Source: Ferrovaceae bacterium
GTDB taxonomy: Bacteria > Pseudomonadota > Gammaproteobacteria > Burkholderiales > Ferrovaceae
NCBI GenBank assembly: GCA_027311025.1
Contig: DAICZS010000012.1
Coordinates: 1-45,536, forward strand
DNA length: 45,536 nucleotides
Direction of reading: 5' to 3'
Numbering within the stretch: position 1 is the first letter of the stretch; every line of letters begins with the position of its first letter. Shown here one piece after another: positions 6,489-9,505 of this stretch. Under the pieces are notes generated by a model, which was not told the DNA's origin, ran no database searches, and saw only the letters and a list, made by a program, of their open reading frames with translations. The translations under genes were made by a program, and so were the position numbers.

Positions 6489-7808
6489 GTGATGGGCTCG
6501 CTGCAGAAATTCTCACGATTGATCACGCAGGTGCTGCTGGCGTTCTCTTTGATCTGTACCGCTTTGTCGGCCAATGGCACAGACACTTACGATCCGGCAA
6601 CCAACATCCTCTCGATTCCCTCGCTGACGATCAACGGTACTGCATATTCCAGCGTCACGATGACGGTGGGCAAGGTGATCAGCATCGGTGGCGGCACGCC
6701 AGTGGGTACCACCGACACCTATTCCACCACATCCGGTCTGCTGACCATTCCCGCTGTCCAGCTGGGAGCCACCACATTCACCAATGTAGTGGCTACCGTG
6801 GGCAACATCATCAGCACCGGCAATGGCGCCATTGCCCCCAATGGCGGCGATACATATGATCCTGCAACCGGTGTTTTGACCGTTCCCCTGGTGCTCGTGG
6901 GCGGCAATGCCTACACCAATGTGCAAGTCACTTTGGGCAGCATCGTCAACATGGGTGGTGGTACCGCAGGGAGCGCTTACGACACTTTCAATACGGCCAC
7001 CAATCAACTGAACATCCCGACAGTACGGGTGGGTAGCACGGTTTATCATAATGTCGTCATTACCGTCGGCGCCATCGTCAGCGTGGGTGGCGGCTCCGTT
7101 CTTCCCGTGACAAAACCGTTGCTGACCCTGAGAAACCCACTGGATTCCGTCACTGTCGGTGACACGGCTTATTCGCAAAATGTCGTGGCGGGCATATGGC
7201 CTACATCCCTATATACATACATGCTCGATTCCTTGAGTAATGGTGTGACCCCCGGCGGAATGACGCTGCACATTGATGGCACGCTCAGTGGCATTCCCAC
7301 CAGCACGGGAAAAACCGATGTCAATGGCAATCAGTTGCCCAATACTTACACGTTTGGCGTCTGCGCCGTGGACACCTTTTCTCGTGTTACCACTTCTCCG
7401 TGCCCACAAACCTCGATTGTCGTGAATCCCCTTGGCGTTGCAGGTACCTGGGTTGGCACATGGAGCAAAACCGGCTCGGGCGACGGCGGCTGCACCTACA
7501 GCGACAGCGGCTCGCTGACGCTCACCCTGTCCACCAGTGGCACTGCGTTATCAGGATCCGTATCCGCCGACGGACTGATGCTGCGCTACGTTCCCAGTTG
7601 CGAATTTGCCTACTACACCTCGTCTTCCGGCACCGTCTCCGGAACGGTTGCAGGATCGAGCCTGAACATTCTCTACAGCCTGTTTATCTCGGAAACGAGT
7701 AAGAATGTTTCCTACAACTGGTCTGCAAAAGTTGCAAACAATGTCATGACTGGCACCCTGGTCAGCAGTTCAGGGGCTACCGGTTCGTTCTCGCTCACGA
7801 AGCAATAG
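6489..7808 (+). CDS. Secreted protein with four ~38-residue beta repeats, an Ig-like domain and a beta-rich tail
   Basis: A 439-residue protein with an N-terminal signal (residues ~1-28). Four tandem repeats follow at residues 32-69, 76-113, 121-158 and 165-202, of the pattern DTYDPATxxLxIPxLxxGxTxYxNVxxTVGxIxSxGGG. Residues ~212-320 look like a putative Ig domain of the He_PIG kind (GTLSGIP...YTFGVCAVD). The last ~115 residues form another beta-rich unit (GTWVGTWSKTG to the end) with paired cysteines. I know similar repeats from uncharacterised betaproteobacterial surface proteins but no assigned function. The start is GTG 6489, 8 nt after GGAGA; ATG 6492 is the alternative. It is a single gene between divergent SDR and downstream chemoreceptor genes. 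Confidence 0.8.
   Translation: MMGSLQKFSRLITQVLLAFSLICTALSANGTDTYDPATNILSIPSLTINGTAYSSVTMTVGKVISIGGGTPVGTTDTYSTTSGLLTIPAVQLGATTFTNVVATVGNIISTGNGAIAPNGGDTYDPATGVLTVPLVLVGGNAYTNVQVTLGSIVNMGGGTAGSAYDTFNTATNQLNIPTVRVGSTVYHNVVITVGAIVSVGGGSVLPVTKPLLTLRNPLDSVTVGDTAYSQNVVAGIWPTSLYTYMLDSLSNGVTPGGMTLHIDGTLSGIPTSTGKTDVNGNQLPNTYTFGVCAVDTFSRVTTSPCPQTSIVVNPLGVAGTWVGTWSKTGSGDGGCTYSDSGSLTLTLSTSGTALSGSVSADGLMLRYVPSCEFAYYTSSSGTVSGTVAGSSLNILYSLFISETSKNVSYNWSAKVANNVMTGTLVSSSGATGSFSLTKQ
6582..7094 (+). repeat. Four in-frame protein repeats (pitch 44-45 codons)
   Basis: The repeat units begin at about 6582, 6714, 6849 and 6981. At protein level each contains an Asp-Thr-aromatic start, a short LxIP or LxVP strand, a Gly turn, an aromatic-x-x-V strand, and TVG or TLG followed by a Gly-rich end. 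The units have diverged in DNA sequence, so recent slippage is unlikely. Confidence 0.75.
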
Positions 7809-7924: not shown

Positions 7925-9505
7925 ATGAAATCCATTCTGGCTCCGGCCTGCAAGATCGTGGATGGTTTGAGTTTTTCATCAAAGTTTTTTCTGGTTGGCA
8001 CCTTGTTGCTTCTTTCCCCTGCGGTGCTGGTCTACATTCTGTGCTTTGCCCAGTTGAATCCGGCACTTCAGGGACTCGTACTGATTGCATTGGGTGCTGC
8101 CGTTCTTGGCGCCTATTTCCTGGCTGGTACGTTCTACTCCATCACGGGGACGATTGCGTCCTTTGCATCAGCCATAGCACGCTTCAGCAATGGCGACCTT
8201 GCTGCCCATGTGCAAACATCGTCCAGGGATCAGTTGGGTAGTATTGCTGCCAGCTTCAACGACATGAGAAAAAATCTCAAACGGATGATTGCGCGAATCT
8301 CCGGCGGCGCTGTGATGGTCGCCGAAGCTGCAGCCAAACTCTCCGATACCTCACGCCAGGTCACAAAACTTTCACAGCAGCAAACCGATGCCGCATCCAG
8401 TGTGGCAGCGGCCGTTGAGGAGATGAGCACCAGTATTTCAATGGTTGCCGGCCACGCCACTGATGCAGAAGGTCTGTCCATCAAGGCCAGTGACCTGTCC
8501 GCCGAAGGGGAGAAAGTGGTTCGGGATGCCTCTACAGGGATGACCCGGATTGCAGATTCCTTCAACCAGGCTACGCAGGAAATCACCTCCCTCAGTCATC
8601 GCACCGCCGAAATCAGTTCCATTGTGAAGGTAATCAAGGAGATTGCCGACCAAACCAATTTGCTGGCCCTCAATGCGGCGATCGAGGCTGCGCGTGCCGG
8701 TGAGCAGGGTCGTGGCTTTGCCGTGGTTGCCGATGAGGTGCGCAAGCTTGCAGAGCGCACGGCTGGTGCCACCGAAGAAATCACCACCATGATCAGCACC
8801 ATCCAGGCCAGCATGCGTACTGCCGTGGATACCATGGGTTCGGGTTCTTCCCAAGTAGGGCACGGGGTGGCGCTTGCCTCGCGTGCCGGCAATGCGCTGT
8901 CTGACATCAACAGTGGTTCGAGGGATGTGCTGGACATGGTCCACGATATCGCCAGTGCCGTACAGGAGCAGACGGTGGCAAGCCACCAGATTGCCGAAAA
9001 CATCGAACGCATCTCGCTGATGGCCCAGGACAGCAACGTCAGTATCGGGCAGATGGCCACTGAAGCAGCAACCCTTGGCGATGTCTCAGGAAGGCTCAAG
9101 GAAGCCATCAGCCTGTTCAGCGGGGGCACGGCCAACGATGCACAGCAACTGGTGGACAAGGGCGTTGCCCTTATCGCGGCCAAGGGCGTGCAGAAGGCCT
9201 TCGCCGAGTTTGCCGACCCGGTGGGCGAGTTCATCAAACGCGATCTCTACCTCTTCGTGTACGACATGAATGGAACAGTGCTGGCGCATGGCGGAAATCC
9301 CGCCCTGGTGGGAAAGGCCATGATCGACGCCAAGGATGCCAATGGCAAGCTTTTCATTCGCGAACGCATCGAGATTGCCAATACCCAGGGTAGCGGCTGG
9401 CAGGACTACATGTTCAATAACCCCGAATCTGGCGTCGTGGAAAACAAGACATCCTACATCCGCAAGGTGGACAACATGATCGTCGGGTGTGGGGTCTACA
9501 AGTAG
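7925..9505 (+). CDS. Methyl-accepting chemotaxis protein with C-terminal Cache domain
   Basis: A 526-residue chemoreceptor. Two membrane helices (~20-41 and ~48-70) are separated by only about six residues, so there is no periplasmic sensor. A HAMP-like region follows (~66-118), then the signalling domain with its conserved tip [21 protein letters not shown] (239-259) and helix [18 protein letters not shown]. After the coiled coil, residues ~406-526 form a single-Cache (sCache_2-like) domain: [28 protein letters not shown], and [10 protein letters not shown]. By topology this sensor is cytoplasmic. GAGAGAGGAA lies about 8 nt before ATG 7925. The receptor probably senses an internal metabolite or redox state and signals through CheA/CheW, which are not in this window. 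Confidence 0.92.

Follow-up and report, generated by a model that had tools for sequence, protein, structure and literature searches.

The window that we analysed, a 45,536-nucleotide stretch of DNA from a Ferrovaceae bacterium, carries on its forward strand an open frame for a protein with a predicted export signal, an N-terminal module of four repeated units and a downstream region that we call the cargo. The features of this gene are as follows.

6489..7808 (+): module gene, an open frame of 439 aa (signal, four-unit N-terminal module and cargo); found at G000:C31 in the search of its own genome
6489..6572 (+): predicted export signal, residues 1-28; 12-residue hydropathy maximum of 2.61, ending 4 residues before unit 1
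6579..6695 (+): unit 1, residues 31-69; 39.9 bits with the window-excluded profile
6711..6827 (+): unit 2, residues 75-113; 45.6 bits with the window-excluded profile
6846..6962 (+): unit 3, residues 120-158; 53.0 bits with the window-excluded profile; modelled with unit 4 (pLDDT 82.8)
6978..7094 (+): unit 4, residues 164-202; 57.4 bits with the window-excluded profile; modelled with unit 3
7095..7805 (+): cargo region, residues 203-439; no Pfam match at E<=1; beta-rich C-terminus with cysteines

The units follow one another at a start-to-start pitch of 44, 45 and 44 residues and share 41-49% identity in pairwise comparisons. The profile used to score them was built from 28 units of other proteins and excluded the window protein, which avoids circularity; among 1000 shuffled versions of the mature window protein, no domain scored above 9.6 bits, compared with 39.9-57.4 bits for the real units. 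The four regular repeats described in the initial annotation are thereby confirmed, at the pitch that it gave, with unit starts that it had placed one residue late.

Beyond the repeats, the window protein has little resemblance to known families. No Pfam family matched any part of the protein at E<=1, and the best matches were at chance level both in NCBIfam (E 0.39) and among the PHROGs (E 0.22 and 0.24). The Ig-like domain that had been proposed to follow the repeats was not borne out by this search; a He_PIG/Ig-like cargo was likewise rejected, both by Pfam and by BLASTP against a He_PIG protein (E 1.0). Of the separate C-terminal beta domain with cysteines, the cysteine-bearing part exists, but it obtained neither a family match nor a confident model, and a relationship of this C-terminal domain to a small secreted protein encoded beside another module gene was rejected (E 1.9). 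In a comparison of the window protein with 41 genomes, matches elsewhere were mostly confined to the repeat region, with two extending to residues 231 and 276. The gene downstream (7925-9505, +) encodes a chemoreceptor-type protein in which HAMP (73-119) and MCP signal (187-364) domains precede a C-terminal Cache domain (402-525), the inverse of the usual order.

Five module genes, each with a cargo of its own, are present in the window genome; the window protein carries four units, and two are found in each of the other four proteins. These four proteins, together with relatives from other genomes, are listed below.

L002 (window genome): two units and a cargo with no assigned family
L003 (window genome): two units and a DUF3443 cargo
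L004 (window genome): two units and an NHL/SGL propeller
L005 (window genome): two units in a 473-aa protein with no Pfam match
L018 and L020 (relatives): DUF3443 cargo
L019 (relative): M23-like match, below the cut-off
L022 (relative): GH130/GH32-like cargo, above the cut-off
L025 (relative): 792-aa ORF with NHL repeats

L005 is 42% identical across almost its whole length to L023, which itself has a weak Lactonase match (17.9 bits, under the cut-off of 21.7). L018 and L024 are the identical protein; the distinct bacterial proteins number 12. The DUF3443 cargo occurs in three of them (363-422 bits in Pfam), while the window protein has no match to this family (PF11925). The Pfam DUF3443 model lacks the module and begins only past it (at residue 120 in L003); therefore, the module is an addition to the DUF3443 family. 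The DUF3443 cargos of L003 (1489-2970) and L018 contain, as read by eye, two DTGS/DSGS-type motifs, which we take to be reminiscent of aspartic proteases. Some 4.4 kb upstream of a module gene, L084:463-1238 (+) encodes a pair that resembles by eye an AbrB-type antitoxin and a PIN-type toxin.

A two-unit profile matches 4 of 32 genomes in the family and 8 of 399 in the order, of which the six outside the family are weaker (best-match E of 1.8e-10 to 1.5e-4); counting the window genome, it matches 2 of 369 genomes at the level of the class and 2 of 398 at that of the phylum. A broader single-unit profile finds 5 of 250 genomes within the order and 5 of 299 within the phylum (window genome counted), some of these at E ~0.01, and no module match was found in plasmids. 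Outside the family, the strongest hits are to small exported proteins in which a single unit is followed by another small domain, together with some diverged pairs of units. In six such small proteins from other families of the order (L039, L040, L041, L042, L044 and L047; ORFs of 137-169 aa), the domain behind the single unit resembles BamE/BLIP-type folds by eye. The records of two relatives are metagenome assemblies, one from Betaproteobacteria and one from Lac Pavin; the former, the record title of L024, supports the earlier statement that the repeat occurs in uncharacterised betaproteobacterial proteins.

The module is also present in viral contigs. Scans of IMG/VR yielded 11 contigs and then 23 distinct contigs, and a third scan added no contig names; the annotated phage collection gave no match with the bacterial module, the phage module or the phage protein as the query. 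In the set of confident matches, the number of units is fixed across bacteria and viruses: exactly two units are found in 11 of the 12 distinct bacterial proteins, with the window protein having four, and in 21 of the 23 viral contigs, the remaining two being truncated (L061 by an early stop inside unit 2, L077 by ending within unit 2). Because the unit number is fixed at two, this survey makes the window repeats look like a two-unit domain that was duplicated, and not like a solenoid; the phylogeny of the units is not the basis of this reading. Indeed, a clean pairwise duplication of units 1-2 into units 3-4 was rejected, since the window units fail to sort as alternating first and second units: unit 1 favours the second-unit profile and units 2, 3 and 4 favour the first-unit profile, where leave-one-protein-out sorting with such profiles was correct for 23 of the 28 units elsewhere. 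A solenoid of variable copy number is not what the profile survey of relatives shows.

The predicted export signal is followed closely by the module. Of 42 proteins, 41 have a hydrophobic core whose end lies 0-9 residues ahead of unit 1, and by this simple hydropathy measure these proteins carry a Sec-type export signal; in the exception, L036, the core ends 21 residues before unit 1. This survey used stop-to-stop ORFs, with the unit start set by hand for seven distant relatives. We infer that the proteins are actually secreted. The fixed spot at the mature N-terminus, ahead of unrelated cargos, could mean that the module is a routing signal, a folded element that the type II machinery, or some other exporter, would recognise in the periplasm and by which the cargo would be taken out of the cell. 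GspL (PF05134), the sole type II component searched, is present above the cut-off in the window genome (E 3.5e-8) and in three of the four module-bearing genomes, the fourth of which is 65% complete. However, of the 28 genomes of the family that lack the module, 16 also have GspL (P 0.63), and therefore the type II association does not discriminate; moreover, to our knowledge, type II substrates have no common domain. On balance, we regard routing as unlikely.

Structure prediction gave beta-rich repeats, not disorder. The model of a two-unit module (window units 3 and 4) has a pLDDT of 82.8, a pTM of 0.71 and three strands per unit. The model of the full mature protein is poorer (mean pLDDT 53.8), with strands in all four units and with the cargo mostly at pLDDT 25-48, apart from the final ~30 residues at about 72-76. 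Searches with the two-unit model revealed no clear fold, with a best Foldseek E of 1.1 in the PDB and 1.5 among viral models, and a VIA-align Z of at most 2.5; the rows returned for the full model, mostly on residues 361-411, contained no clear match. The module likewise had no match among Pfam, NCBIfam and PHROG families. A weak but recurring resemblance is to the blades of Kelch beta-propellers, as the unit is of similar length (~44 residues) and its YDPxTN...GG motif is in register with the KLHL17 Kelch (phmmer E 0.006 and 0.0014, the latter for the four-unit region). The module differs from these propellers in having only two or four units, and its one confident model is of a two-unit monomer, where a propeller closes four to eight blades into a ring. 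We consider Kelch membership unproven: there is no Pfam Kelch match, hhalign assigned a probability of 5-9% (8.6% in one comparison), and the shuffle control was mixed, with shuffles reaching the real score in 8 of 500 cases for the window, 4 of 500 for L050 and 29-203 of 500 for five other module regions. No match to a characterised repeat family appeared, and the weak Kelch likeness was not consistently upheld by its control.

This resemblance nonetheless bears on the idea that the module binds carbohydrate, in which case the two-unit domain would bind exopolysaccharide or another glycan and so enrich the cargo at that site, with the blade-like units perhaps forming an oligomer. Lectins of the RSL/BambL type have two tandem ~45-residue repeats per chain and trimerise into a six-bladed propeller, an arrangement that the two ~44-residue units per module chain may recall. 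Some cargos are carbohydrate-active or lyase-like, including that of L022 and, below the cut-off, those of L050 and L058, and the KLHL17 match to the four-unit region points in the same direction. In contrast, these lectins stand alone while the module leads a cargo, the DUF3443 and NHL propeller cargos have no evident glycan link, and the Kelch control is weak, its shuffles reaching the real score rarely for two module regions and more often for five others. Among PDB sequences, the module gave no match to such two-repeat propeller lectins. A glycan-binding module is, in our estimate, quite unlikely.

On a 111-kb viral contig, the module gene lies among genes for a tail sheath, a virion structural protein, the head-tail adaptor Ad2, a deoxyribonucleotidase and a deoxynucleoside monophosphate kinase; therefore, this contig, the one of the 23 that was checked in this way, is a true phage. 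Its tail-sheath-like protein is ∼38% identical to proteins of PA5oct-like and Sinorhizobium phages, and it is a T4/PA5oct-like phage. The PA5oct homologue of the upstream gene, gp292, is followed immediately by Ad2 (gp291), and no module gene separates the two; therefore the phage module gene is extra cargo. In L049, an additional gene of 277 aa (L049:6370-7203, +) separates the module gene from that of the head-tail adaptor; it is missing there in L050, and its sole PHROG match, to a group of unknown function, is weak (E 0.0015).

We found that the phage proteins have a constant leader and a variable cargo. Twenty phage module ORFs exceed 400 aa, and 17 of these are distinct. Among the 136 pairs of the 17 proteins, the identity of signal plus module is 69-99% (median 82%), but the identity of the cargo falls to a minimum of 15% (median 21%); for example, L049 and L065 are 92% identical in signal and module and 19% in cargo. 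At the DNA level, all six pairs compared share homology that extends from the upstream gene across the module and breaks off at aa 115-131, close to the end of unit 2 (~118); a homologous block restarts downstream at 71-90% identity. FG-GAP cargo was found above the cut-off in L048, L049, L052, L053 and L055, and the cargos of L050 and L058 match an alginate-lyase profile at 19.6-19.8 bits, under the cut-off of 22.2; the cargos of other viral contigs were classed by identity to these FG-GAP and alginate-lyase members, which left L074 unclassified.

The phage module is under purifying selection, with a median dN/dS for signal plus module of 0.10 (134 usable pairs); values inside the cargo classes are 0.06-0.11. 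Thus, of the maintained solenoid proposed initially, the maintenance is upheld by selection in relatives, but the solenoid is not. The suggestion of a stalk that projects a C-terminal binding module is replaced by that of a leader module ahead of many kinds of cargo, enzymes included. Closest to the stalk would be a passive spacer or folding aid that separates the cargo from the membrane or assists folding after export, as small beta units, glycine-rich ends and the duplication to four units in the window protein might suggest. However, conservation between bacteria and phages is sequence-specific (45-48% identity by tblastn), the dN/dS of the module is 0.10, and the number of units is fixed at two without variation in length. 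We consider such a passive role very unlikely.

A small lipoprotein is encoded close upstream of the module gene in phages. An ORF of 55-59 aa with an LxACGG lipobox was found in 22 of the 23 contigs, the 23rd (L065) starting too late to show it, and it ends 1 nt before the ATG of the module gene in 19 of the 20 loci listed (7 nt in L072). The lipoproteins contain the motifs TDPFAP (22/22) and NPF (21/22) and have a dN/dS of 0.17. In L061, in which the module gene is interrupted, the lipoprotein gene is intact. In the phages, the lipoprotein, signal and module form a constant cassette in which only the cargo is exchanged. The lipoprotein could instead be an outer-membrane spanin-like lysis protein and a mere neighbour of the module gene, given that it is small and proline-rich and that, for one of two lipoproteins, the PHROG ‘Rz-like spanin’ was matched at chance level (E 0.045). 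This explanation seems to us fairly unlikely, as the lipoprotein shares the homology block with signal and module in all six pairs, the neighbouring ORF upstream encodes a 398-aa protein of phrog_11903, a group of unknown function, and no inner-membrane spanin partner was noticed in the course of the other analyses.

Proteins with similar short motifs adjoin module genes in two bacterial genomes. G018 encodes, between module genes, a single-span protein of 140 aa that contains DPFKAFL and DPFQQAM, and in G011 a 123-aa single-span [DN]PF protein is encoded directly 3' of the module gene. In ten bacterial regions, two [DN]PFxxx[LM] motifs, a pattern defined post hoc after its proteins had been seen, occur in 2 of 1654 ORFs, both adjoining module genes, compared with 0 of 33080 shuffled ORFs. 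By profile, no relationship between the phage and bacterial [DN]PF proteins was detectable (E 0.5-2.3). None of the five module genes of the window genome, that of the window included, is adjoined by a [DN]PF protein; the two companion-like genes of this genome (E 7.6e-8 and 3.3e-4) lie away from module genes, in the neighbourhood of genes for a protein kinase and a secreted hydrolase-like protein. Companions co-occur with the module in 3 of 4 genomes versus 1 of 28 that lack it, but two of the three were used to build the companion profile; without these two, the comparison is 1 of 2 versus 1 of 28 and is not significant (P 0.13). At L125:8693-10729 (+), a secreted hydrolase-like protein with a different N-terminal segment (SYAAANYPSLFTG...) is encoded head to head with the gene of a companion-like membrane protein.

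The architecture of these proteins is clear: signal position, a constant module, a variable cargo and, in phages, a neighbouring lipoprotein. Because the module sits behind the export signal of differing proteins, and phages combine it with interchangeable cargo, it probably positions cargo at the envelope. The module would be an N-terminal leader, normally one two-unit beta domain and in the window protein two in tandem, that becomes the front of the mature protein when the export signal is removed. Its task would be the same whatever the cargo, namely to keep exported cargo at, or bring it to, the envelope or surface of the cell; docking on an envelope-anchored partner would be the most likely means. 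The candidate partner is the protein with repeated [DN]PFxxx[LM] motifs, a small lipoprotein or a membrane protein with a single span, that is encoded beside module genes in the phages and in two bacterial genomes. We favour this reading, a docking module that places exported cargo at the envelope, perhaps through [DN]PF partners, at a confidence just short of even; the docking, the identity of the partner and the assumption that the window protein works like the others are all inferred.

Modules that place cargo from one end of a protein are known from PEP-CTERM and type IX sorting domains and from the cohesin-dockerin system. As with the PEP-CTERM and type IX domains, one terminal module is shared by many unrelated exported cargos, but those domains are C-terminal and the module is at the mature N-terminus in every confident protein. 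The proposed docking resembles that of cohesin and dockerin, in which the cargo bears a small module, an anchored protein bears the partner, and the enzymes are exchangeable; it differs in that there is no Pfam match at E<=1 and in that the proposed partner has short [DN]PF motifs, not a folded cohesin. A terminal module that places varied cargo is thus of a known kind, and, as far as our searches reach, this domain, its N-terminal place and the phage cassette appear to be new. In the parts that were available of the literature searched, which excluded subscription papers and preprints, we found no description of the module and no mention of DUF3443.

A broader and more speculative reading, which we consider rather less likely than docking itself, is that bacteria and lytic phages have in common a two-gene surface-display cassette, composed of an anchored [DN]PF protein and an N-terminal docking module with exchangeable cargo. 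T4/PA5oct-like phages would have acquired this cassette, would often swap the cargo at the module boundary, and might thereby decorate or remodel the host cell surface during infection, a role for which polysaccharide lyase-like and FG-GAP propeller cargos may be cited.

A domain that is absent from the Pfam, NCBIfam and PHROG copies thus marks exported proteins in one bacterial family and one phage group, and therefore annotating it would group many ‘hypothetical’ proteins. The pattern of constant leader and variable cargo makes the evolution of phage surface proteins measurable, and the small lipoprotein is a testable candidate for the partner. If docking is true, these phages would possess an exchangeable system by which enzymes and propellers are placed on the host envelope or within it.
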